Assembly (NCBI GenBank): GCA_030673965.1
Contig: JAUTCN010000002.1
Coordinates: forward strand, 124,001 to 188,000
DNA length: 64,000 nt
Origin: Fusobacterium sp. JB019
GTDB taxonomy: Bacteria; Fusobacteriota; Fusobacteriia; Fusobacteriales; Fusobacteriaceae
Reading direction: 5' to 3'
The translations under genes were made by a program, and so were the position numbers. Below the pieces are notes generated by a model, which was not told the origin of the DNA, did no database searches, and saw only the letters and a list, made by a program, of their open reading frames with translations. This document shows positions 2,761 through 62,975 of the stretch, one piece after another (the stretch's first letter is position 1; each line of letters begins with the position of its first letter).

Positions 2761-3651
2761 ATGGACAATAAATTATTACAATATTTTATTTTAATTTTAG
2801 GAACTTTTGCCTTGTCAACTTCAGCTATATTTGTTAAATTAAGTGATGCTCCTTCTTCTATAGTAGCTTTCTATAGATTAGGTTTTACTTTTTTAATGTT
2901 ATTTCCCTTTGTGTTTACAAATAAAAAAAATTTAAAACAAGTAAAAGAATTAACAAAAAAACAAATTTTAATAGGGGCTGCTTCTGGGATATTTTTATCA
3001 CTACATTATCTATTATGGTTTGAATCTTTAAAATTTACATCGGTAGCAAGTTCTACAGTTATTGTAACTCTTCAACCTGTTTTTGCCTTTGCAGCAAGTG
3101 CTTTAATATTTAAAGAAAAATTTTCTAAGCAGGCAATTTTAGGAGCTTTTATTTCTATTATAGGTTGCGCTATTATAGGATGGGGAGATTTTCAGATTAG
3201 TGGGACAGCATTAATTGGAGATATAATGGCTTTTGTAGCTGCAGGAGTTATAACAGCTTATTTTTTTGTGGGACAAATTTTAAGGAAAGAAATAGATGTA
3301 GTTCCTTATTCTATTGTAGGATATGGAATGAGCTCTATAATTTTGTTTGTATATTCTATAGTAACAAAAGCTTCTTTTTTTAATTATTCTAAATTAACTT
3401 GGTGGTGTTTTTTAGGATTAGCTCTTATTTCAACAGTTTTAGGTCAGGTTATCTTTAATTGGTTGTTAAAATGGGTTAGTGCTTCAACAGTTTCCATGTC
3501 TATTTTAGGAGAATCTGTAGGAACGTGTATTCTTGCTTATCTTATACTTGGAGAGATTTTAACAATAAAACAATTTATAGGAATATTAATTATTTTAAGT
3601 GGTCTTTTAATGTATTTTATAGATAATAAAAAGAAATCAGATAATAGTTAA
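2761..3651 (+). CDS. DMT-superfamily permease (EamA/RhaT type)
   Basis: 296 aa with about ten hydrophobic helices arranged as two EamA repeats (roughly 10-140 and 155-290). This is the fold of inner-membrane drug/metabolite exporters. Typical motifs are present: FALSTSAIFVKLS in helix 1, the conserved repeat-end segment FKEKFSKQAILGAFISIIG, and its counterpart LGEILTIKQFIGILIILSG near the C-terminus. The substrate cannot be told from sequence. It has its own promoter and AAGGAGA site. It converges with the alkaline phosphatase gene and shares a terminator with it. Confidence 0.85.
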   Translation: MDNKLLQYFILILGTFALSTSAIFVKLSDAPSSIVAFYRLGFTFLMLFPFVFTNKKNLKQVKELTKKQILIGAASGIFLSLHYLLWFESLKFTSVASSTVIVTLQPVFAFAASALIFKEKFSKQAILGAFISIIGCAIIGWGDFQISGTALIGDIMAFVAAGVITAYFFVGQILRKEIDVVPYSIVGYGMSSIILFVYSIVTKASFFNYSKLTWWCFLGLALISTVLGQVIFNWLLKWVSASTVSMSILGESVGTCILAYLILGEILTIKQFIGILIILSGLLMYFIDNKKKSDNS

Positions 3652-3674
3652 GCTCCCTTAAGGGAGCTTTTTTT
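3651..3674. terminator. Bidirectional terminator between converging genes
   Basis: Perfect inverted repeat AGCTCCCTTAAGGGAGCT (3651-3668) followed by Ts on the + strand. It lies between the DMT permease and the alkaline phosphatase. Confidence 0.85.
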
Positions 3675-4740
3675 ATTTCATTAGATTGAAAATAGAAATA
3701 TTTTTAATGATTTTTTTATTTATATTATAATTTCCATTGTATATATAAATTGGAACTAAAGCTTTTGTATGAGAACCATTATTTTTCCAATCAAAACTAG
3801 GAACTTTATTTTTTCCTTTATTAATTAAATTTTTAATTCCACCAGTTTCGTGATCAGCGGTTATAATAACCATAGTATCTTTATTTTTTTTAGCCCATTG
3901 TAAAACATAGTCTACAGTGGAACCAAAATTTTTCATTTCATGGATAGTTCTATCTTTTTCAAGAGCATGGGAAGCATCATCTATTCTACCTCCTTCTACC
4001 ATTAAGAAGAAGCCTTTTTTATTTTTTGAAAGTATATTTAAAGATTTTGCTGTCATTTCTTTTAATGAAGGAGCTATCTTTTCTTGATCAAAGTATGGAA
4101 GATTTGTATTTCCAAAAGTAGCAATTATTGGTTTGTTTTTATAAGATAAAAGTTTAAAATCATCATAAGTATCAATAACTTGAAAGTTATTTTGTTTAAA
4201 AGATAATTTTTTTAAATCTGTAAGCTTAGGATCTCCACCTCCCATTATAATATCTGGCTTTATACTAAGGAAATCATTTAAAATTTCATCATGATTGTGT
4301 CTGTTGTTGCTGTGAGAAGCGAAAACAGCAGGAGTAGCATCTGTTATTGAGGTTGTAGTAATTATTCCAGTTGATTTTCCTTCTGATTTTTTAAGTTCAA
4401 GTATAGTTTTTTCATTCTTGTTAAAAATATTTTCAGATATTTTTCGAGGGTTAGTTTTAATTCCTGTAGCCATTGCTGTTCCAGCAGCAGCAGAATCTGT
4501 AGTTTCAAAAAACATACTTAAATTTTCAACATATCCTTTTGGTAAAGATTCAAATTTAAATTTTTGACCATTTAAATATTCTCCAGCTTTTATATGATTT
4601 TCGCCCATTCCGTCTCCAATTAAAAGAATAACATTTTTAGGTGCTTTTTCTTTAGGGAAAAGAAAAGATGTTGAATGTATAAAGAATATTAAAAATATAA
4701 AAATGATAAAGGTTAAGACGATTTTTGTTAATTTTTTCAT
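3673..4740 (-). CDS. Alkaline phosphatase
   Basis: 355 aa, shorter than E. coli PhoA but with the family core. VILLIGDGMG is the first metal-binding aspartate motif, and TTDSAAAGTAMATG holds the nucleophilic serine. SHSNNRHNH, MVEGGRIDDASH and ITADHETGG supply further metal ligands. An N-terminal hydrophobic stretch (about residues 5-27) is a signal peptide or membrane anchor, so the enzyme acts outside the cytoplasmic membrane and would release phosphate from organic esters. The start is preceded by AAGGAG. Upstream lie three direct TTAANN repeats spaced like a Pho box, suggesting induction by phosphate starvation. Confidence 0.92.
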   Translation of the reverse strand: MKKLTKIVLTFIIFIFLIFFIHSTSFLFPKEKAPKNVILLIGDGMGENHIKAGEYLNGQKFKFESLPKGYVENLSMFFETTDSAAAGTAMATGIKTNPRKISENIFNKNEKTILELKKSEGKSTGIITTTSITDATPAVFASHSNNRHNHDEILNDFLSIKPDIIMGGGDPKLTDLKKLSFKQNNFQVIDTYDDFKLLSYKNKPIIATFGNTNLPYFDQEKIAPSLKEMTAKSLNILSKNKKGFFLMVEGGRIDDASHALEKDRTIHEMKNFGSTVDYVLQWAKKNKDTMVIITADHETGGIKNLINKGKNKVPSFDWKNNGSHTKALVPIYIYNGNYNINKKIIKNISIFNLMK

Positions 4741-4786
4741 TTGAATAACTCCTTTTGTGTATTGTAAAGTTATTATAAATGAAAAA

Positions 4787-4814
4787 TATTAATATTTGGT
4801 TAATATTTCCTTAA
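4787..4814 (-). promoter_or_regulatory. Pho-box-like operator of the alkaline phosphatase gene
   Basis: On the minus strand: TTAAGG, AAATA, TTAACC, AAATA, TTAATA, i.e. three hexamers at an exact 11-bp period. A TATAAT -10 follows at 4777-4772 on that strand, with no recognisable -35. This matches the layout of PhoP/PhoB operators (TTAACA-like repeats with 5-bp spacers) at activator-dependent promoters. Sequence seen; the regulator is inferred. Confidence 0.6.
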
Positions 4815-4826
4815 AGTTTTTTTATT

Positions 4827-4860
4827 ATAAAAAAGAACTATAGATTTTTCTATAGTTCTT
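4827..4860 (-). terminator. Terminator of the 59-aa gene
   Basis: Inverted repeat AAGAACTATAGA / TCTATAGTTCTT (4833-4860), with a T run on the minus strand. Confidence 0.75.
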
Positions 4861-4881
4861 AGTATATTTATTATTTGTTTT

Positions 4882-5061
4882 TTAGATATCATAGGTTAAT
4901 AAATTTCCATTTTTATCATATCGTTTAGGTTTTTTCAAATTTTCTTTCATGGTTTTGAAAAATTCTTTTTTTTCATTTTGGGAAATATTTTTTTTAAAAA
5001 CAATTTCTCCATTTTTTATTTCTACTTTTTTAATTAAATTTTTGGGAAAAGGAACTAGCAT
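4882..5061 (-). CDS. Small hypothetical protein, 59 aa
   Basis: The frame runs from ATG (complement of 5059-5061) to TAA at 4882. A good AGAGGTGAT ribosome binding site precedes it and a terminator follows, so it is probably expressed. The protein is short, very lysine-rich and soluble (starts MLVPFPKNLIKKVEIKNG, ends YDKNGNLLTYDI), with no cysteine and no membrane segment. I do not recognise a family. It stands alone between the alkaline phosphatase and the NSS transporter. Confidence 0.65.
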   Translation of the reverse strand: MLVPFPKNLIKKVEIKNGEIVFKKNISQNEKKEFFKTMKENLKKPKRYDKNGNLLTYDI

Positions 5062-5389
5062 TCTAAATCACCTCTTTCAATCTATAATATTACTTTAAAA
5101 TAAGATTTTTTATAATTTCATACATATCTCCCTACTCAAAGTATACTACTTTTATTTTAGATAATCAATTTTTATATTTTGTTTACGGGCTAAATATAAG
5201 TAATTTTAAAATTAATCCTTCTAAATAAATGTTTTTGATAATAAAATATTAAATAATTATTACTCTTAAAAAAGATTAAGGTGGTATAATATAGATAAGA
5301 ATTCTTTTCAAAATTATCTCAATCATGAAAAACAACTTATAATATGTGCTTGAAGCATTTTTAAAACACGAGGTATAAAAAAAATAGTA
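5062..5389. other. Gene-poor spacer
   Basis: No convincing gene. It holds an extended -10 motif, TGGTATAAT, at 5282-5290. Within about 80 bp downstream is a weak hairpin and T run near 5350-5370. A 17-bp stretch here (5275-5291) recurs before the antiporter gene at 37679-37695. Confidence 0.4.
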
Positions 5390-5417
5390 TTGACATATTA
5401 AAAAAATAGTATATAAT
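5390..5417 (+). promoter_or_regulatory. Promoter of the NSS transporter operon
   Basis: TTGACA (5390-5395), 16 bp, TATAAT (5412-5417). The untranslated leader is about 90 nt. Confidence 0.75.
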
Positions 5418-5515
5418 ATTTTAAAACTATAAATTAAATTTAATTGATTATAAGTTTTTAAAATTATAAACAAAATGTACGGTATTCTTAATGGAAATTA
5501 AGAGAGGAGGAGTTT

Positions 5516-7051
5516 ATGAGTGTAGAGCATAGAGGAGAATGGGGCTCAAGAATGGGATTTATTCTTGCAGCTATAGGTTCAGCAGTAGGATTAGGAAATA
5601 TATGGAGATTTCCATATACGGTAGCAAGTAATGGAGGGGGAGCATTTTTAATTCCTTATTTAGTAGCATTATTAACTGCAGGAATTCCAATTTTAATATT
5701 AGAATTTTCTTTAGGTCATAAAACGAGACATAGTGCTCCAGGAGTATTTGGACATTTAAATAAAAAATATGAAGTTGTTGGATGGTTTCAAACATTGATA
5801 GCTTTTTGTATAACAACTTATTATGTTGTCATTATTGCGTGGGCTGTAAGTTATGCAGGATATGCATTAACTGGAGCTTGGGGGAGTGATCCGAAAGGAT
5901 TTTTATTTGGAAATTATTTACAATTAACTGACTCTCCAATGAAATTAGGAGGATTGAATACAAAGGTATTAATTCCACTTTTAATTGTATGGTTAGTTAA
6001 TTATATTGTTATTAGGTTAGGTATTAAGGGGGGGCTAGAAAAAGCAAATAAAATATTTATGCCTTTACTTGTAATAGCTCTTTTAATTATTGTAGTAAGA
6101 GGAGTAACTTTACCAGGTGCTTTATCAGGTTTAGATTATTTTTTCAAACCAGATTTTAGTAAACTATTAGATCCTCAAGTTTGGTTATCTGCTTATGGTC
6201 AAATTTTCTTTTCTTTAAGTGTTTGTTTTGCAATTATGTATGCTTATTCTAGTTATTTACCAAAGGATTCAGATATAGTAAACAATGCATTTATAACAGG
6301 ACTTGGAAATTGTAGTTTTAGTTTATTATCTGGAATAGGAGTATTTAGTGTGTTAGGGTACATGGCTTATAGTCAAGGTGTAAGTGTAGCAGAAGTATCT
6401 TCAGCTGGAGTAGGGCTTGCTTTTGTAGTTTTTCCTCAAGCTATAAGTGCATTGCCAGGGATGAATGGAATAATCGGAGTAATTTTCTTTGCTTCTTTAA
6501 TATTTGCAGGATTTTCATCTTCAATATCAATAGTGGAAGCTGTAGTGGCATCTATTAGAGATAAATTTAATTTAACAAGAAAACAAGCTTTAAATAGATT
6601 TACATTAATATCAGGTTTATTATCTTTAGTTATAGCTACTAAAGGTGGATTATATATTTTGGATATCGTGGATTATGCAACAAATCAATATGGAATTGTT
6701 ATGGCAGGATTTGCGGAACTAGTTATATTTGGATGGCTTTTTAAAACTGATAGTGTAAGAAGATATGCGAATAGTCTTTCTGATTTTGCAATTGGAAAGT
6801 GGTGGTTAGTTTGTATTAGAGCTACATCATTAATTCTTGGATTAATGTTGTTCTTGAAAATAAAAAATACAATAAATAATCCATATGAAGGATATTCTTG
6901 GCTAGCTTTAGGGATATATGGAATGGGTGTAATTATTGCAGTTATAATTGGAGCGATTATACTGGCTAAGAAAAAAGGTTCAGATAAATTTGAACAAGAT
7001 ATATATCATAATGGTCTTGGAAATGAAATAAAATTAGATGTAGAAGATTAA
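5516..7051 (+). CDS. Sodium-dependent neurotransmitter-symporter family (NSS/SNF) transporter
   Basis: 511 aa, about 11-12 transmembrane helices. The first helix carries the family signature: AAIGSAVGLGNIWRFP, then GGGAFLIPYL, where LeuT-type transporters bind sodium and the substrate amino acid. It sits in the inner membrane and should import an amino acid with sodium. The specificity is not visible, although MetS-associated members carry methionine or alanine. The start follows a strong GAGAGGAGGAG site. A 32-aa membrane peptide gene follows after 15 bp, the known arrangement for MetP-MetS pairs. Confidence 0.92.
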   Translation: MSVEHRGEWGSRMGFILAAIGSAVGLGNIWRFPYTVASNGGGAFLIPYLVALLTAGIPILILEFSLGHKTRHSAPGVFGHLNKKYEVVGWFQTLIAFCITTYYVVIIAWAVSYAGYALTGAWGSDPKGFLFGNYLQLTDSPMKLGGLNTKVLIPLLIVWLVNYIVIRLGIKGGLEKANKIFMPLLVIALLIIVVRGVTLPGALSGLDYFFKPDFSKLLDPQVWLSAYGQIFFSLSVCFAIMYAYSSYLPKDSDIVNNAFITGLGNCSFSLLSGIGVFSVLGYMAYSQGVSVAEVSSAGVGLAFVVFPQAISALPGMNGIIGVIFFASLIFAGFSSSISIVEAVVASIRDKFNLTRKQALNRFTLISGLLSLVIATKGGLYILDIVDYATNQYGIVMAGFAELVIFGWLFKTDSVRRYANSLSDFAIGKWWLVCIRATSLILGLMLFLKIKNTINNPYEGYSWLALGIYGMGVIIAVIIGAIILAKKKGSDKFEQDIYHNGLGNEIKLDVED

Positions 7052-7066
7052 AAGGAGGATGAGTTT

Positions 7067-7165
7067 ATGAGTACAGGAGCAATAATAATGGCTATTTTAA
7101 GTTGTGTCATCCTTTGGGGTGGATTTGCAGTTTGTTTAAGAATTGCTTTAAAGTCAAATAAATAA
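7067..7165 (+). CDS. MetS-like small subunit of the NSS transporter, 32 aa
   Basis: ATG follows an AAAGGAGGATGAG site 15 bp after the transporter stop. The product, starting MSTGAIIMAILSCVILWGGF, is a single membrane helix ending in a short basic tail. Length, start (MSTxAIIM), the central WGG and the position behind an NSS gene all match the MetS small subunits described for methionine/alanine NSS systems. It probably assembles with the permease in the membrane. Confidence 0.8.
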   Translation: MSTGAIIMAILSCVILWGGFAVCLRIALKSNK

Positions 7166-7169
7166 TAAA

Positions 7170-7206
7170 ATGACTCTACTTATTAAAAACTTTAATAGGT
7201 AGAGTC
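7170..7206 (+). terminator. Terminator of the NSS-MetS operon
   Basis: Inverted repeat GACTCTAC ... GTAGAGTC with additional A/T pairs inside. The T run is weak. Confidence 0.6.
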
Positions 7207-7273
7207 TATAAAAATAATTAAAAAATAAATTTTAAGTCTTGACATTTTATAGAATAAAAGGTATTATATTACT

Positions 7274-7348
7274 ACCATGTCAAATATTTAAAATTTTATA
7301 TTTTTAAATATTTACCAAAAGGGCTTAGTTAATTTCTAAGCCCTTTTA
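7274..7348 (+). ncRNA. Short transcription unit A (candidate small RNA, about 75 nt)
   Basis: Promoter TTGACA (7239-7244), 17 bp, TATTAT (7262-7267). The predicted RNA has a long A/T inverted repeat (AAATATTT ... AAATATTT) and ends in hairpin GGGCTTAG-loop-CTAAGCCC with four Ts. No ORF with a ribosome binding site fits. The last 20 nt are antisense to the end of the converging gene. Same design as units B, C, E-H, J and K. Transcription is inferred. Confidence 0.55.
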
Positions 7349-7958
7349 GTTTATCTAAATTATTTATTTCATAAGATAAAACTTCTTTCCAAATTTCTTT
7401 TAGATAAATGTTATTAAAGTATTTTTTTATTGTGCAATATCCAGGTAAATTTTCACATAGTGAAATTTCAGTCATAGATAGTTTGTGATCATTGTTTTTG
7501 TGATATTCTTCTAAAAGTTTAATTGTTAAAATTTCTTTGCTATATGTTTTATAACTATTTGGAACTTTAAGATCATCACATATACTTCCAGCTAAAGCAT
7601 TAATATAACCATATTTTTTTAAATAAGAATCTCTAAATTCTTTTTTATCTGACGGATTATATATTTTTATAAAATTTTCCATTTGTTTTTGATGAGTCAT
7701 TTGTCCAAATAAGAGGTGAGGGCGGGAAATTTTAATATTGTGCAAATAAGGTTTTGTGATTGGCTTTATTGTTAAATTAAAATTATTTTTTTCAAAATAT
7801 TTAGCAATTAAGTCGAATAGATTGTAAAAATCTTTAATATTTAAATCATTCATAAGTTTTAAATTATTATTAAACAATAATTTTGTGGAAATAATTATAT
7901 TTTCTTTTGAATATTTTAGTAAAAGATTTTTTAATAATAATTCTTCCTTTTCTTCCAT
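7329..7958 (-). CDS. Hypothetical protein, 209 aa
   Basis: I do not recognise the protein with confidence. The start at 7958 (MEEKEELLLKN) is preferred over two upstream in-frame ATGs because AAGGAG lies nine bases before it. The protein is soluble and charged, with no signal or membrane helix. The C-terminal part (about 165-200, with LPGYCTIKKYF and then IWKEVL) loosely resembles the short helical repeats associated with HNH/homing endonucleases or DNA binding; this is a weak resemblance. The 3' end overlaps the terminator hairpin of unit A on the other strand. Confidence 0.6.
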   Translation of the reverse strand: MEEKEELLLKNLLLKYSKENIIISTKLLFNNNLKLMNDLNIKDFYNLFDLIAKYFEKNNFNLTIKPITKPYLHNIKISRPHLLFGQMTHQKQMENFIKIYNPSDKKEFRDSYLKKYGYINALAGSICDDLKVPNSYKTYSKEILTIKLLEEYHKNNDHKLSMTEISLCENLPGYCTIKKYFNNIYLKEIWKEVLSYEINNLDKLKGLRN

Positions 7959-8041
7959 AAGAGTCATCTCCTTAAAATACATTCTGTTACTAAATTATAT
8001 TATATGCTTTATTTTGAAAAAATCAAATAAATTTTAAATTT

Positions 8042-8665
8042 TTAGTTGTGGTTAATCATTCCCATATTAACAATTCTGTTTTTTATTAAAGCTGTAACTT
8101 CATCTAAATTTTCATTAATTTTTTCTTTTCTTTTTTGTGAATCTTTGTAAGGGAAACTAACTGCTTTTTTATTAATTAATTTTTCAAGGGCTTGAGCTTC
8201 TAAATTACAAAGACATTTTATTTCTTTTCCTTTAACATATATTTCTTCTAAGTAAAATGGTTTATGTTTATCTAGAGCAACAGACAAACTATTGTAAGTA
8301 GATTTAAAGTTTTCTAATCTCTTTTTCTTTTCAGTAACTGTAATGGGAGAATCTAATTTAGGAGCCAATTTATTTGTTTCGAGATTTAAATTGTAGATCA
8401 AGTCAAAAATTTCAGTGTATATTTTAAATTCTAATTCAAATTGAAGTTTTGCAACTGAGTTTTTACTTGCTAAGAAGTCTTTATACTCTTTTATTTGAGT
8501 TTTCAATATGAAAATAATGAAGAAAGGATTTATAAAAGCTAAAATTGCTATAACGGCTGTCATATTTAAGTTTGTGAAAATACTAAGTCTAATTAAAATA
8601 AATAAAAAAAATACATATGCTAAAACTTTAAAAGCTTGTTTTTCTAAAAGATTTTTCTTTTCCAT
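8042..8665 (-). CDS. Hypothetical membrane protein, 207 aa
   Basis: Two adjacent transmembrane helices (about residues 13-30 and 35-55) form a hairpin at the N-terminus. They are followed by about 150 residues of charged, largely helical cytoplasmic sequence with a likely coiled coil around 60-130. One CLC pair lies near residue 152. Good AAGGAG site before the start. No family recognised. It stands alone on the minus strand, in line with the 209-aa and 121-aa genes around it but separated from them by gaps. Confidence 0.6.
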   Translation of the reverse strand: MEKKNLLEKQAFKVLAYVFFLFILIRLSIFTNLNMTAVIAILAFINPFFIIFILKTQIKEYKDFLASKNSVAKLQFELEFKIYTEIFDLIYNLNLETNKLAPKLDSPITVTEKKKRLENFKSTYNSLSVALDKHKPFYLEEIYVKGKEIKCLCNLEAQALEKLINKKAVSFPYKDSQKRKEKINENLDEVTALIKNRIVNMGMINHN

Positions 8666-8807
8666 ATATTCTCATCTCCTTAAGGTTCTTTTCTATAATT
8701 ATACTATAAGAATATAAAAAAAGGATTAAATACTAGCTTTTAAATTATGTTATAAAAAAATCTTTAATAAAGTTGACAAATTGAAATTATGAGGGTATCC
8801 TTTTAGT

Positions 8808-8873
8808 AACCTCAATATTAAATTATTTGTGTAATATTTTTTACCTAAAGACCTAGTTTTCTAGGTCTTTTTA
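8808..8873 (+). ncRNA. Short transcription unit B (candidate small RNA, about 65 nt)
   Basis: Promoter TTGACA (8773-8778), 17 bp, TATCCT (8796-8801). GAGGG directly precedes the -10. Terminator AAAGACCTAG-TTTT-CTAGGTCTTT (8847-8870) then Ts. The body holds AATATT ... AATATT. No ORF visible. Confidence 0.55.
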
Positions 8874-8875
8874 TA

Positions 8876-9241
8876 TTAACTTTCTAACCAATCCCAAGCT
8901 TCATTTATTTTATTAGCTTCAAATTTAGCTCTATTGATATTAGCTAATTCAAATAGGGGCTGTATTTGTTTGAAAAATATTTCTGCTATTTCAGCATCTG
9001 AAACTAAAGCAACTTTATTGATTCTATTAAAATTTTGAACTATCCACTTTAAATCTTCTAATTCTGCTTTGGTATCCCAAGTGATATTTTTTTCTACTAG
9101 AACAAGAATATTTATTTTTTCATGCTTTTCTAAAATAGAATTTAATTTTCCTAAAAAAGTTAGTTCTTCTTCTAAAGTTACTTTTCCACTAGCATGTATT
9201 CCAAAATTAGCCTTATTGCTTCTTGAAAGTAATTCAATCAT
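8876..9241 (-). CDS. SpoIIAA-like / STAS-fold protein
   Basis: 121 aa, close to the usual size of the SpoIIAA-like (STAS/Sec14-like) family. The N-terminal part (FGIHASGKVTLEEELTF) fits the conserved strand, G-K-[VT]-T and acidic helix start. The alternating strands and helices that follow (INILVLVEKN, VALVSDAEIAEIF) fit the rest of the fold. Cytoplasmic, function unknown; members may bind lipids or act in regulation. Strong GGAGGAAGG site. Single gene; its 3' end abuts the terminator of unit B. Confidence 0.7.
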   Translation of the reverse strand: MIELLSRSNKANFGIHASGKVTLEEELTFLGKLNSILEKHEKINILVLVEKNITWDTKAELEDLKWIVQNFNRINKVALVSDAEIAEIFFKQIQPLFELANINRAKFEANKINEAWDWLES

Positions 9242-9406
9242 ATTATCCTTCCTCCTTCATATAAATGAAACCAATAAAATAAATATCTAATTATTAAAAC
9301 GTATTACTATAAGTACATTGTAGATCTTTTCATGATTCTTTTCAATGGAAAAATATAAAAAATTAAAAGACTTGACATATGAAGATTATAAGAGTATTCT
9401 TAAATT

Positions 9407-9469
9407 AATCTTTTCTTAATATACAAGTGTTATCTTTCTAAAGGCTTAGTTAATTCTAAGCCTTTTTTT
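9407..9469 (+). ncRNA. Short transcription unit C (candidate small RNA, about 60 nt)
   Basis: Promoter TTGACA (9372-9377), 17 bp, TATTCT (9395-9400). Terminator AAGGCTTAG-TTAATT-CTAAGCCTT (9441-9463) followed by seven Ts. No ORF visible. Confidence 0.55.
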
Positions 9470-9532
9470 ATTTAAATAATCATTAAATAACAGTGCCAAA
9501 TTTAACTTTCTTAAATATAATAATTTAAACTG

Positions 9533-9561
9533 TTGACAATTAATACATCTGGAGGTATATT
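9533..9561 (+). promoter_or_regulatory. Promoter of unit D
   Basis: TTGACA (9533-9538), 17 bp ending GGAGG, TATATT (9556-9561). Same design as the small RNA units, but here it drives a small ORF. Confidence 0.65.
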
Positions 9562-9615
9562 TAAAACGTAGTGTTCGCTATAAATTTAAATTATGTAAGG
9601 AAGGAGGTATTTGTT

Positions 9616-9813
9616 ATGATTTTTTATATAAATGAGAATACACACGAAATACATAGACTAACATGTAGTTTTGTTGATCCTGATAAATATCCTAATGTTG
9701 TTTATTTAGGAAATTATAATTCTTCTGAAAAAGCAGTAATAGATGCTTTAGAAAGAAGTTATTATAAAGCAAATGCTTGCACTCATTGCTGCTCTAAAAC
9801 TAATGTTGATTAA
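9616..9813 (+). CDS. Cys-containing microprotein, 65 aa (paralogue of the gene at 62734)
   Basis: ATG 9616 is chosen because AAGGAAGGAGG lies just before it; an upstream ATG at 9571 has no site. The sequence starts MIFYINENTHEIHRLTC and ends with a C-x2-CC cluster (C55, C58, C59). With H13 and C17 this could bind a metal. It aligns along its length with the 64-aa protein at 62734: YIN..T.E, C17, V.LGN[YF], then a helix with SE.AV. Function unknown. It is unit D of the short transcription units. Confidence 0.75.
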   Translation: MIFYINENTHEIHRLTCSFVDPDKYPNVVYLGNYNSSEKAVIDALERSYYKANACTHCCSKTNVD

Positions 9814-9818
9814 TTTTT

Positions 9819-9853
9819 TAGTTAGAGACTAGGGTGAAACTAAGCTTTTTTGT
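9819..9853 (+). terminator. Possible terminator of unit D
   Basis: TTAGTT ... AACTAA stem with a long loop, then GC and six Ts. Weak. Confidence 0.4.
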
Positions 9854-9897
9854 AATTGCTTTTCAGATATTTAATAAAAATAAATAGATTATAAATA

Positions 9898-9941
9898 AAA
9901 AAAGAAAACCTTTTATAATATAAGGCTTTCTTTTTTTATTG
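9898..9941. terminator. Possible bidirectional terminator, likely serving the pentapeptide gene
   Basis: AAAGAAAACCTT / AAGGCTTTCTTT imperfect hairpin with T runs on both strands. A similar element lies at 10738-10778 at the end of CRISPR array 1. Confidence 0.45.
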
Positions 9942-10053
9942 TTTAAAGTTTAGGGTAGGAAACTCATAAACCTGACTAAAGTTTAGGAGTTAATAAAATG
10001 TAAAACATCTACATCACAAGATAATAATACCACAATTAACTTTGAAAGTCAAA

Positions 10054-10617
10054 TCATTTGATTTTAATGTTAAAATCTTTTAATAATCCAATTAAATCAG
10101 GAAGAGAAAATTGTCCTCCTGTGATATTATTTGTTAAAGGATTTATTCTATAATTAGTAGCTTTTTTAAAGTTAGAATTTTCTAAATTGCAATTTTCAAA
10201 ACATGTTCCTTGTAAGTCACAATTTTTAAAAGAGGCTTGTTTAAGATTAGTATTAGAAAATAAACATTCTTTTAAAGTGGAATTTGAAAAATCTATTTTC
10301 TTTAAATCTAATTTGCTAAAATCACAATATTTTAAGTATGATTTAAGAAAGACTACTTCAATTATAAATTGATTGATATTACTTAAAAAAATATTGATAA
10401 GTTCAGAATTTTCAAAATTTAAATCTATAAATTTTGAATGGCAGAAAGTACAGGTATTTAATTGACAAGATTTAAAGGTACAGTTTTCAAAGATAGTATT
10501 ATTAAAGTTTATTTGGTTAAAAGCTATTCCTTCAAATGTGCAACTTAAAAATTCGCTGTTTTCAAAAGTTAATGTTTCCATATCTTTTTTAGTAAAAATT
10601 ATATCTTCGTAGTACAT
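10054..10617 (-). CDS. Pentapeptide-repeat protein
   Basis: 187 aa made almost entirely of A(D/N)LXX-like pentapeptide repeats, e.g. CTFEGIAFNQINFNN, SNSTLKECLFSNTNL and CNLENSNFKKATNYRI. They predict a right-handed quadrilateral beta helix from about residue 15 to 160. No signal peptide, so probably cytoplasmic. Related proteins (Qnr, MfpA) mimic DNA and protect gyrase, but repeat proteins of this kind have many roles and none can be assigned here. The ribosome binding site is weak. Cysteine is unusually common at repeat positions. Confidence 0.8.
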   Translation of the reverse strand: MYYEDIIFTKKDMETLTFENSEFLSCTFEGIAFNQINFNNTIFENCTFKSCQLNTCTFCHSKFIDLNFENSELINIFLSNINQFIIEVVFLKSYLKYCDFSKLDLKKIDFSNSTLKECLFSNTNLKQASFKNCDLQGTCFENCNLENSNFKKATNYRINPLTNNITGGQFSLPDLIGLLKDFNIKIK

Positions 10618-10737
10618 ATTTCACTTTCTTTATAAAAAGTTTAAACTATTTATTTTTTTGTTTTAATATAACATAGAGGTGAGAAGGAGTCAATTTTTAA
10701 TGTGATTAAGGAAGAGATAATAAAATAATTAGAAATC

Positions 10738-10778
10738 AAAAAAAGAAAACCTTTTATATAAAAAGAGATTTTCTTTTT
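10738..10778 (-). terminator. Terminator-like hairpin at the distal end of CRISPR array 1
   Basis: Read on the minus strand, AAAGAAAA ... TTTTCTTT with a 7-T run directly follows the last, degenerate repeat of array 1. It would end the array transcript. Confidence 0.5.
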
Positions 10779-11280
10779 GTTCCACATTGGTTAGATTAAA
10801 ATATGTTAATTCCTGATACACCTTCAGAATATAACATAAAGTTTACATTCCACATTGGTTAGATTAAAATGAAAAAGCTATTATCAATGGTATTAAAGAT
10901 GGTAAAGGTTTACATTCCACATTGGTTAGATTAAAATTAAAAGGAGCTATAATAGGAATCGTTATTTTGATTTGTTTACATTCCACATTGGTTAGATTAA
11001 AATGTTACATACATTTTTGGAAAGTAAGCAAGATTTTACAACTGTTTACATTCCACATTGGTTAGATTAAAATTAGTGTCCATTTCTTTTCTTTGTAATT
11101 TATATTCTTATGGTTTACATTCCACATTGGTTAGATTAAAATTAACCAAATAGAAATCAAAAAAGAAATTGTAGATATGATGGTTTACATTCCACATTGG
11201 TTAGATTAAAATTTTTCTACTATTTTATCTTCTATTTCTTCATAATTTTCGTTTACATTCCACATTGGTTAGATTAAAAT
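10773..11280 (-). CRISPR. CRISPR array 1: 8 repeats, 7 spacers, minus-strand orientation
   Basis: Seven identical 30-bp repeats start at 10841, 10908, 10974, 11044, 11113, 11183 and 11251. An eighth, degenerate copy lies at 10773-10802 and keeps only its 3' part on the + strand. Spacers are 36-40 bp. On the + strand each repeat starts GTTTACATTCCACATTGG and ends GATTAAAAT. The minus-strand form ends GGAATGTAAAC, like clostridial type I-B repeats. The degenerate copy marks the old end on the left, and the conserved flank on the right is the leader, so transcription runs right to left. No matching interference genes lie nearby. Confidence 0.95.
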
Positions 11281-11475
11281 AGGTACCCTTGTAACCTTTT
11301 TAAAATTATAACATAAGAAAGTCGTTTCTGTCGACCCCCTAAATTTTCATGATTTTTGCTATAAGTTTTACTAATTCATCTCTTTAATTTTTATGTAAAA
11401 TATTTATTTTGTTAGCTTTATAAAAAACTGTCGATCTATAGGTAAATTTGTCTTACCGGAGGTCGACAGTTTTTG
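11281..11475 (-). promoter_or_regulatory. Leader of CRISPR array 1
   Basis: The flank after the last repeat closely matches that of array 2. On the minus strand it holds TCGACA, 18 bp, TATAAT (-10 at 11310-11305), about 25 bp before the first repeat. A CTGTCGACCCCC block lies at 11328-11339. Exactly 100 bp further, AAAACTGTCGA ... TCGACAGTTTT (11424-11473) forms a 11-12-bp stem with T runs on both strands. The last element is probably a bidirectional terminator that insulates the leader. Confidence 0.75.
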
Positions 11476-11564
11476 AAGCTTTAAAATATAAAAAATTTAT
11501 ATATTTAACTTTTTAAGATATTTTTAGACTTGATAAATTGAGATTATGAGGGTATCCTCGTAAT

Positions 11565-11612
11565 ACTTAAAGATATTACAGACTAAGGCTTAGTTAATTC
11601 TAAGTCTTTTTT
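11565..11612 (+). ncRNA. Short transcription unit E (candidate small RNA, about 50 nt)
   Basis: Promoter TTGATA (11530-11535), 17 bp, TATCCT (11553-11558) inside the palindrome GAGG-G-TAT-CCTC. The body has a GTAATA ... TATTAC stem, then a terminator with mixed arms (AGACTAAGGCTTAG / CTAAGTCT) and Ts. Near copy of unit J. Confidence 0.55.
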
Positions 11613-11655
11613 ATTCACTGTTGACAAATTTAAAAAACGGGTGTAGTATCAAGTT

Positions 11656-11728
11656 AGATGTAAATATTTCATAGAGTAACTCCTAAAATTTAAATCCTTA
11701 AGACCTGGAATTATTTCTAGGTCTTTTT
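11656..11728 (+). ncRNA. Short transcription unit F (candidate small RNA, about 70 nt)
   Basis: Promoter TTGACA (11621-11626), 17 bp, TAGTAT (11644-11649). Terminator AGACCTGGAA / TTCTAGGTCT (11701-11724) then Ts. No ORF visible. Confidence 0.5.
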
Positions 11729-11769
11729 GGTGTGTTGACAAAGTAGTAATTCAGGAGTATATTATATTT

Positions 11770-11827
11770 AGCATAATCCTTATGCAATGTAATATTGAAA
11801 GGTCTAGATATATATCTAGACCTTTTT
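11770..11827 (+). ncRNA. Short transcription unit G (candidate small RNA, about 57 nt)
   Basis: Promoter TTGACA (11735-11740), 17 bp, TATATT (11758-11763). The body has a perfect GCATAA-TCC-TTATGC hairpin. Terminator AGGTCTAGAT / ATCTAGACCT then five Ts. Confidence 0.55.
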
Positions 11828-11869
11828 GTGTTTGTTGACAAATTAAGAATTTGAAGGTATAACTATAGT

Positions 11870-11931
11870 GCCATTAAAAATATATTAAGCATTACCTTTT
11901 AAGACTTAGATTTTTATCTAAGTCTTTTTTT
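11870..11931 (+). ncRNA. Short transcription unit H (candidate small RNA, about 60 nt)
   Basis: Promoter TTGACA (11835-11840), 17 bp ending GAAGG, TATAAC (11858-11863). Terminator AAGACTTAGAT / ATCTAAGTCTT then Ts. Thirty-six bases from the -10 region onward (11853-11888) are identical to unit K. Confidence 0.55.
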
Positions 11932-11947
11932 ATAGAAAGATTATTGG

Positions 11948-11976
11948 TTGACAATTGATTTGTCTAGGTGTATACA
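11948..11976 (+). promoter_or_regulatory. Promoter of unit I
   Basis: TTGACA (11948-11953), 17 bp, TATACA (11971-11976), then a leader of about 50 nt to the 78-aa ORF. Confidence 0.65.
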
Positions 11977-12028
11977 TAGAATGTAGGAAGCATTAAGTTA
12001 AACTATAAAAGAGAGGAGGTGCTAATAG

Positions 12029-12265
12029 ATGTCAAAGACTAATAAAGAACTAGCTGTTGATGTAGCTTTAAAAATTATTGAAGCACAATTGATAAGTTTT
12101 TATGATCCAAATAGACCTAGTGATAGTAAAAAGAAATATGAAGCTACCCCACTAATAAATATTACTTGTAAGATAATAAAAGATGTTTATAAAACATTGG
12201 AAGAATTAGATGGAAATTCAAACAAAGAGATAGATATAGATATCGAGGCTCTTGATATACCATAG
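12029..12265 (+). CDS. Hypothetical protein, 78 aa
   Basis: The start follows AGAGAGGAGGTG at good spacing. The protein is soluble and mainly helical: MSKTNKELAVDVALKIIEAQ at the start, a charged linker near residues 30-45, a second helix (NITCKIIKDVYKTLEELD), and an acidic tail rich in Ile and Asp. No family recognised. It is the only ORF within the tandem block of short units (unit I) and has its own promoter and terminator. It does not resemble the two Cys microproteins. Confidence 0.7.
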   Translation: MSKTNKELAVDVALKIIEAQLISFYDPNRPSDSKKKYEATPLINITCKIIKDVYKTLEELDGNSNKEIDIDIEALDIP

Positions 12266-12269
12266 TTAA

Positions 12270-12299
12270 ATCTTGGGTTAGTTAACCCAAGATTTTTTT
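12270..12299 (+). terminator. Terminator of unit I
   Basis: ATCTTGGGTTA-GT-TAACCCAAGAT followed by seven Ts. Strong. Confidence 0.85.
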
Positions 12300-12420
12300 A
12301 TTTACTAAATTTATTTTATTTAGTTTTGTTTGTTGGAATTTTTTTATAAAATTGTAGTTAATTATAATTCTTATTAAAGAATTATTTTAGAAAATTTTAG
12401 AGAAAAAGGTATATTTGTTT

Positions 12421-12583
12421 TATTAATTTCCATAGTGGTTAGATTAAAATTTACAGCAGAATTTAATTTTGCTACAGATATGAAAGAATTTACATTCCAT
12501 AGTGGTTAGATTAAAATAAACCCTTTTAGAACGGCGTCCTCTGTAATAAAATTATTTACATTCCATAGTGGTTAGATTAAAAT
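12421..12583 (-). CRISPR. CRISPR array 2: 3 repeats, 2 spacers, minus-strand orientation
   Basis: Repeats at 12421-12450 (degenerate first third), 12488-12517 and 12554-12583. Spacers are 37 and 36 bp. The repeat resembles that of array 1 but begins ATTTACATTCCATAGTGG. The CCA/TGG stem is kept, while the loop and the first base differ. Leader on the right, degenerate copy on the left, as in array 1. Confidence 0.93.
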
Positions 12584-12776
12584 AGGTACCCTTGTAACCT
12601 CCCTAAAATTATAGCATAAGAAAGTAGTTTCTGTCGACCCCCTAAAATTGCATAAATTTTCCCATAAGTTTTTCTTGTTTATTTAATAAATTTCCTGATA
12701 AAGTATTTTTTTTGTTGAAGTTATAAGAAACTGTCGATCTATAGGTATTTTTACCTTACCGGAGGTCGACAGTTTT
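12584..12776 (-). promoter_or_regulatory. Leader of CRISPR array 2
   Basis: Near copy of leader 1. On the minus strand: TCGACA, 18 bp, TATAAT (12613-12608). The CTGTCGACCCCC block is at 12631-12642. The CTGTCGA ... TCGACAG stem is at 12731-12772, again exactly 100 bp from that block. Confidence 0.75.
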
Positions 12777-12925
12777 TGGATTTAAAAAAAGAAATATGAT
12801 AAAAGTTTTCAAAACTAAAAGTTTCTTCAATAGGTTTAACATATAATGGTTTAGTTCAATATTCGAAATGATAAAGTAACTTTTTCAAACAATTTTTAAA
12901 TGTTTTGCTTTTTTTTAATATTTTT
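12777..12925. other. Spacer between leader 2 and unit J
   Basis: AT-rich, with no ORF, hairpin or repeat that I can support. The matching interval after leader 1 is only about 50 bp. Confidence 0.4.
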
Positions 12926-12964
12926 AGACTTGACAAATTAAATTTTTGGGGGTATCCTCATAAT

Positions 12965-13019
12965 ACCTTTAAGTATTATATATTACAGACTAAGGCTTAG
13001 TTCATTCTAAGTCTTTTTT
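12965..13019 (+). ncRNA. Short transcription unit J (candidate small RNA, about 55 nt)
   Basis: Promoter TTGACA (12930-12935), 17 bp, TATCCT (12953-12958), followed by CATAAT. Terminator with the same mixed arms as unit E (AGACTAAGGCTTAG / CTAAGTCT), then Ts. Near copy of unit E. Confidence 0.55.
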
Positions 13020-13068
13020 ATTTTGTTTTACAGTTGACAAAATAAAAATATGAAGGTATAACTATAGT

Positions 13069-13127
13069 GCCATTAAAAATATATTAATCATTAACTTTAA
13101 AGACTTAGATTTTTATCTAAGTCTTTT
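13069..13127 (+). ncRNA. Short transcription unit K (candidate small RNA, about 60 nt)
   Basis: Promoter TTGACA (13034-13039), 17 bp, TATAAC (13057-13062). Terminator AAAGACTTAGAT-loop-ATCTAAGTCTTT, four Ts. Near copy of unit H. Confidence 0.55.
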
Positions 13128-62651: not shown

Positions 62652-62680
62652 TTGACAATTGAAAGTTTTGGAGGTATCCT
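62652..62680 (+). promoter_or_regulatory. Promoter of unit L
   Basis: TTGACA (62652-62657), 17 bp, TATCCT (62675-62680) inside GGAGGTATCCTC. Same type as units B, E and J, 50 kb away. Confidence 0.65.
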
Positions 62681-62733
62681 CATATTAGATAAGGAATTAT
62701 CTTACTACATGTATTTTCAGAAAGGAGAACATT

Positions 62734-62928
62734 ATGAAATATTATATTAACAAAAAAACTCAAGAAGTATTTAAGGAATCTTGTAACGAGTGTGGTTGTA
62801 CTGATGATATGGTTCTTTTAGGAAATTTTGAATATGTTAGCGAAGCTGTGGAAGCAGCTAAAGCAAAAGGATATCCTAAAGCTGATGGTTCTGCTTACGA
62901 TAGTTTAAATTGTCATACCAAAGATTAG
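62734..62928 (+). CDS. Cys-containing microprotein, 64 aa (paralogue of the gene at 9616)
   Basis: Starts MKYYINKKTQEVFKESC; C17, C20, C22 and C60-H61 could form a metal site. It shares the frame of the 9616 protein: YIN..T.E[IV], C17, a V.LGN[YF] strand, and a helix with SEAVEAA. AAGGAG precedes the ATG. A terminator follows. Function unknown. Confidence 0.75.
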   Translation: MKYYINKKTQEVFKESCNECGCTDDMVLLGNFEYVSEAVEAAKAKGYPKADGSAYDSLNCHTKD

Positions 62929-62948
62929 TTTATTTATAAATTCTTTTT

Positions 62949-62975
62949 AAGGTCTAGTTATCTAGACCTTTTTTG
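62949..62975 (+). terminator. Terminator of unit L
   Basis: AAGGTCTAG-TTAT-CTAGACCTT followed by Ts; closely like the hairpins of units B, F and G. Confidence 0.85.

Follow-up and report, generated by a model that had tools for sequence, protein, structure and literature searches.

Nine short promoter-terminator units without an ORF (A, B, C, E, F, G, H, J and K), all on the plus strand within about 6.2 kb of Fusobacterium sp. JB019 DNA, are best explained as a lineage-specific array of small noncoding RNA genes that are each transcribed independently, a reading drawn from sequence in which our confidence stands near the halfway mark. The window (the whole 64,000-nucleotide stretch that was analysed) is part of a 549-kb contig in an assembly of 2.27 Mb and 22 contigs, order Fusobacteriales. 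The locus at 7.2-13.2 kb is flanked by a sodium symporter operon and tRNA-Leu. Its minus strand carries four ORFs (two without a Pfam match, one SpoIIAA-like and one encoding a pentapeptide-repeat protein), and two CRISPR arrays are read from that strand, with the units on the plus strand. An integron-type cassette array would have attC sites and an integrase in cis; the annotated ORFs here include no integrase family.

The original prediction described a tandem series of very short promoter-terminator units, and all nine were confirmed at their positions and strand, each with a -10 hexamer set off by a promoter spacer of exactly 17 bp, and with an intrinsic terminator (8- to 13-bp stem plus T-run). 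The -35 box was TTGACA-like throughout, as predicted, being TTGACA in eight of the nine and TTGATA in E; the -10 form TATNNT was not universal (TATAAC in H and K, TAGTAT in F). Short RNAs were again predicted, their range moving from the 50-75 nt first given to 48-76 nt. Bodies of 26-52 nt lie between the -10 box and the terminator, and structure besides the terminator was seen only in A and perhaps G. A G stood directly before the -10 hexamer in every unit, compared with 31 of 86 other promoters of the genome. No ORF preceded by a Shine-Dalgarno sequence was found in the nine units, and the ORF check in the window gave only unit M. Each of the nine has the makeup of an independent intergenic sRNA gene, with a promoter and an intrinsic terminator of its own enclosing no ORF. 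A leaderless mini-ORF (GTG CCA TTA AAA ATA TAT TAA), conserved between H and K, was considered and rejected as a coding reading: E and J lack any start codon, and the three body differences are too few to judge.

Features of the locus and related units (positions in the window; RNAs and their lengths are predicted)
Feature	Position	Strand	Description
Unit A	7239..7349	+	TTGACA-17-TATTAT; predicted 76-nt RNA; internal 12-bp A/T hairpin; terminator 7317-7347
Unit B	8773..8873	+	TTGACA-17-TATCCT; predicted 66-nt RNA; terminator 8847-8870; spacer 16/17 identical to E
Unit C	9372..9469	+	TTGACA-17-TATTCT; predicted 63-nt RNA; terminator 9440-9465
Unit D	9533..9813	+	TTGACA-17-TATATT; Shine-Dalgarno; 65-aa ORF 9616-9813; phrog_4298 match
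CRISPR array 1	10779-11280 (about)	-	I-B-like repeat; crRNA sense on minus strand; interleaved with units
CRISPR leader 1	11281..11480	-	common to the genome's other arrays; ends before unit E
Unit E	11530..11612	+	TTGATA-17-TATCCT; predicted 48-nt RNA; terminator 11585-11608; paralogue of J
Unit F	11621..11728	+	TTGACA-17-TAGTAT; predicted 73-nt RNA; terminator 11700-11725
Unit G	11735..11829	+	TTGACA-17-TATATT; predicted 60-nt RNA; 6-bp 5' hairpin; terminator 11797-11826
Unit H	11835..11930	+	TTGACA-17-TATAAC; predicted 61-nt RNA; terminator 11901-11926; paralogue of K (93%)
Unit I	11948..12295	+	same promoter type; Shine-Dalgarno; 78-aa ORF 12029-12265; terminator 12268-12295
CRISPR array 2	12428-12583	-	followed by leader, 12584 to about 12785
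Unit J	12930..13019	+	TTGACA-17-TATCCT; predicted 55-nt RNA; terminator 12992-13015; paralogue of E
Unit K	13034..13127	+	TTGACA-17-TATAAC; predicted 59-nt RNA; terminator 13099-13126; paralogue of H
Unit M	62652..62975	+	promoter GGAGGTATCCTC, same type; 64-aa ORF 62734-62928 (phrog_4298); CTAG-type terminator

The clustering of these units is real and far beyond chance. A neutral scan, not tuned on the unit alignment, required a -35 box with at least 5/6 matches, a spacer of 16-18, a -10 box starting TA with at least 4/6 matches and, 20-100 nt downstream, a stem of at least 8 with a T-run. At the 6.2-kb locus it returned the nine units on the plus strand, together with two weaker promoter-like starts that overlap units E and K, and nothing on the other strand. 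The remainder of the window gave one match; a 400-kb sample of the same genome, taken as background and scanned on both strands, gave seven, mostly weak promoter-like and spurious. Terminator-like sites between 5000 and 15000 numbered 14, against 1.4 ± 1.1 in shuffles, and the tandem pattern promoter-terminator-promoter had four occurrences in the window and none in 100 shuffles. Promoter-like matches alone were not enriched (85 versus 71 ± 9). It is thus the pairing of promoter with terminator, and the clustering of the pairs, that the scan and shuffle excess establishes.

Promoter spacers of the seven non-duplicate units agreed at a mean of 9.0 of 17 positions. For sets drawn at random from 85 further consensus promoters in the genome the mean was 6.5 of 17, and 0.1% of draws reached the observed value; by this comparison the unit promoters share ancestry. 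The bodies between -10 box and terminator could be aligned only within the pairs E/J and H/K; what the units share is thus the frame and not the RNA. Outside the pairs, the units have promoter and terminator in common and neither RNA sequence nor fold beyond the terminator, whose stem is maintained through two-sided changes at 5 of 12 pairs. The idea of a small RNA family consequently holds for the promoters, which are related, and the terminators, which are alike, but not for the bodies, which outside E/J and H/K are unrelated. Judged by these alignments, the units are a family of promoter-terminator frames with differing contents.

E/J and H/K resemble copies of one block that includes the CRISPR leader (82% identity). 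In these two pairs, with stem positions counted by hand, differences fell at 8 of 34 promoter spacer positions and at 1 of 64 positions in hexamers and terminator stems (Fisher p = 0.0008). Because the changes sit in the spacer and spare hexamers and stems, the frames look selected, this comparison being the one line of evidence on selection. The same drift of the spacer around retained hexamers and stems speaks against the possibility, raised with the original prediction, that the units are unrelated terminator debris.

Among the genomes searched, the units were restricted to this one. A covariance model built from the nine units scored them at 76-93 bits and everything else in the genome at 36 bits or less, a result in which only the absence of others is informative. 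The same model, run with stricter filters in 60 other genomes of the family, found no cluster; the best match in relatives reached 50 bits, and those listed were ordinary terminators or single promoters. This search had been proposed beforehand as a check on conservation; it found no comparable units in relatives, and cross-species conservation therefore gives no functional support either way. A simpler pattern (promoter, 42-72 nt, CTANNNCTTTT) had seven matches in the genome itself, each of them forward and at the locus. In 95 further genomes of the order it had no more than three per genome, close to the count from a reversed-pattern control. Pattern matches of the form GACAGTTC...CCATCCTGTC(T/A)ATAAATAAAA at G001:C44:10152, G004:C5:6797 and G025:C10:3145 resemble preQ1-I riboswitches.

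Wider searches gave a similar picture. Contigs of about 85,000 species genomes, scanned for the layout, contained six isolated single matches in unrelated organisms, and viral contigs three isolated matches; no clusters were found in either. DNA homologues of the units in phages and plasmids were not convincing, and the H/K body and the C/E terminator were absent from viral contigs. No unit reached the gathering score of an Rfam covariance model; only tRNA-Leu did so, with CRISPR repeats below threshold. A literature search for such tandem layouts returned nothing relevant.

As a small-RNA array, each unit would be a complete, insulated transcription unit, with transcription starting from a near-consensus promoter of the housekeeping-sigma type and stopping, after about 48-76 nt of RNA, at an intrinsic terminator ahead of the next promoter. 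The array would have grown by local duplication of frames, with E/J and H/K copied as one block and the B promoter lying close to that of E. After duplication the RNA bodies would diverge or be replaced, while hexamers and terminator stems were retained. The products would most likely be short trans-acting RNAs, in which different single-stranded bodies stand upstream of a common terminator-type 3' hairpin. Promoter quality makes it likely that the predicted RNAs are made; whether they act as RNAs we judge to be about even. Target predictions for 394 gene starts and the CRISPR repeat did not go beyond chance, and pairing with local genes and the leader yielded nothing convincing. Unit F ranked gene M 7th of 394 in pairing, which is not beyond the expectation of 27 unit-gene tests. 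The complement of the H/K 5' end was found exactly only in H and K, and with two mismatches at six places in the genome.

Three further units carry genes. Unit I had been set apart from the start, and its promoter proved to be that of an ordinary gene, with a Shine-Dalgarno sequence, an ORF and a terminator downstream. The proposal of expression slots for microgenes has some basis in fact, in that the similar promoters at 9533, 11948 and 62652 do drive microgenes. The D and M proteins, which are related (33% identity when aligned), both match phrog_4298. This phage family has no known function, and its relatives in the bacterial family are scattered and often multicopy. These small proteins (L088-L117) share conserved YIN/YID, (H)EIH and Cys residues and are encoded in single-gene units; some relatives (G070, G074) carry as many as 11 copies per genome. 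The unit I protein has relatives in four viral contigs that start MSKTNKELAV; its family (L128-L131) starts MSKTNKELAV(D/E) and has no PHROGs match, and one member (L129) has minus-strand start regions on its flanks whose ribosome-binding sequences are nearly identical.

The alternative that survives best, possible though on the doubtful side, is that the nine units are emptied cassettes. A moron-like frame of promoter, small phage-type ORF and terminator would have lost its ORF by deletion or replacement, and the frames would have been multiplied by recombination; the remnants may be transcribed without RNA function, or may serve as landing slots. D, I and M share the promoter type and carry genes of 64-78 aa (with links to phrog_4298, IMG/VR loci and Streptococcus prophages), and bodies vary among the units as slot contents would. 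The main support comes from the closest relative, G005, which has an M orthologue (L081:4669-4980; 79%) with the same promoter type. Its terminator repeats those of units C and E almost letter for letter, and it lies downstream of the symporter gene that here precedes unit A; promoter, terminator and position together tie the frame to phage-type microgenes. Decay, however, would hardly leave a perfect -35 box in eight of nine units, uniform 17-bp spacing and intact terminators, and the hexamers and stems of E/J and H/K look constrained. Nine clean losses of ORF and ribosome site are unlikely unless one empty frame was copied, and ORF remnants were not recognised in the bodies. Phage morons, in which a single gene has its own promoter and terminator, show the same promoter-content-terminator frame, and an ORF between promoter and terminator is present in D, I and M; the nine units, by contrast, are ORF-less and form a chromosomal array around which no phage structural genes were recognised.

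A cassette system, in which fixed promoter-terminator frames hold exchangeable contents beside CRISPR arrays, mostly noncoding bodies and in other cases phage-derived microgenes, seems improbable to us. If it were true, a short acquired sequence would become at once a strongly transcribed, insulated gene.

We find it harder still to credit that the units are transcription barriers, whose terminators insulate genes and CRISPR arrays and whose promoters are secondary. The terminators of units A and B do coincide exactly with the 3' ends of minus-strand ORFs (7329-7982, with overlap, and the ORF ending at 8876), but for a barrier neither a consensus promoter ahead of every terminator nor a run of four units is needed, and the T-runs serve the plus strand only.

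The two CRISPR arrays interleaved with the units, absent from the original prediction, raised the possibility that the units are leader parts or CreTA-like toxic or guide RNAs. E and J begin 50-150 bp past the leaders of the two arrays and point away from them, and the genome has an I-B-type cas operon (Cas6, Cas7/DevR-like, Cas5, Cas3, Cas4, Cas1 and Cas2; L134, G000:C2:186500-199500, at 3170-11251) with an array on each side. At least seven arrays on one contig share the leader, yet only the two at this locus adjoin units, which makes the units CRISPR neighbours and not CRISPR parts. In the seven arrays compared, five had no unit after the leader, and the leader before E ended at about 11480; an origin from the leader was rejected. 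The other shared-leader arrays lie on G000:C2 near 32.2, 188.3, 197.7, 207.5 and 353.2 kb. At its end the shared leader, about 200 bp long, has a conserved hairpin (CTGTCGATCTATAGG...CCGGAGGTCGACAG) with T5 after it; a different type of array near 31 kb, with repeat GTTTAAATCTCACATTAGTGAGTTTAGTCT, has only the leader hairpin in common.

Like the units, CreTA modules are very small RNA genes linked to type I CRISPR loci (PMC8501985, PMC9458426), but neither an ectopic repeat nor a matching spacer seed was found at the units. The best candidate for a CreTA degenerate repeat in the units matched at 19 of 30 positions, and a seed of at least 10 at a unit promoter was found in none of 70 spacers. 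Two spacer seed matches fell inside units, both in the T-runs of the E and J terminators; matches at the locus numbered 14, compared with 6.6 in simple shuffles, all in AT-rich runs. A conserved start codon or mini-ORF as in CreT was also absent. By these comparisons a CRISPR-linked reading is largely refuted, and we hold it very improbable.

Chance, in the form of an AT-rich genome with abundant promoter-like sites and ordinary CTAG-type terminators, is scarcely credible: lone promoter-like sites are unenriched and CTAG/CTTAG-type terminators also occur in relatives, but the paired units, about two orders of magnitude above genome background, all lie in one place on one strand, and the neutral scan, the tandem-pattern shuffles and the cross-genome pattern counts refute it.

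For the small-RNA array that we favour, the nearest known systems agree in part. Fusobacterium sRNAs with housekeeping promoters and poly-U terminators are established, about 24 being annotated, among them FoxI and FoxJ (PMC11005410). They come from the same order as the units and are likewise intergenic with intrinsic terminators, but they are conserved across fusobacterial species (FoxJ, of about 156 nt, in synteny), whereas the units occur in one genome only. A term search of that paper found no mention of a tandem sRNA cluster. Sibling or multicopy sRNAs such as OmrA/OmrB, AbcR1/AbcR2, PrrF1/PrrF2 and the streptococcal csRNAs are also short tandem genes with their own promoter and terminator that arose by duplication. 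The two PrrF genes lie side by side, as do the two Omr genes, and OmrA and OmrB have shared ends and divergent middles (PMC4211561). Copying by duplication is seen here in E/J and H/K, and for the other units through the relatedness of their promoter spacers. Sibling sRNAs share RNA sequence in two to six copies; the nine units compared here share only promoter and terminator type, with no homologous RNA in all copies, and none was conserved in related species.

If transcribed, the units would form the densest run of independent sub-80-nt RNA genes among the genomes searched here, in a phylum in which RNA regulation has received little study. As emptied microgene slots, they would instead record the turnover of phage-type microgenes beside CRISPR arrays. 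If the small RNAs are made, the array would be an unusual, lineage-specific small-RNA locus. Transcription of the units would show sRNA genes arising by the copying of a promoter-terminator frame while the RNA body changes, and would give a direct view of the origin of new sRNA genes, which is usually argued from single examples.
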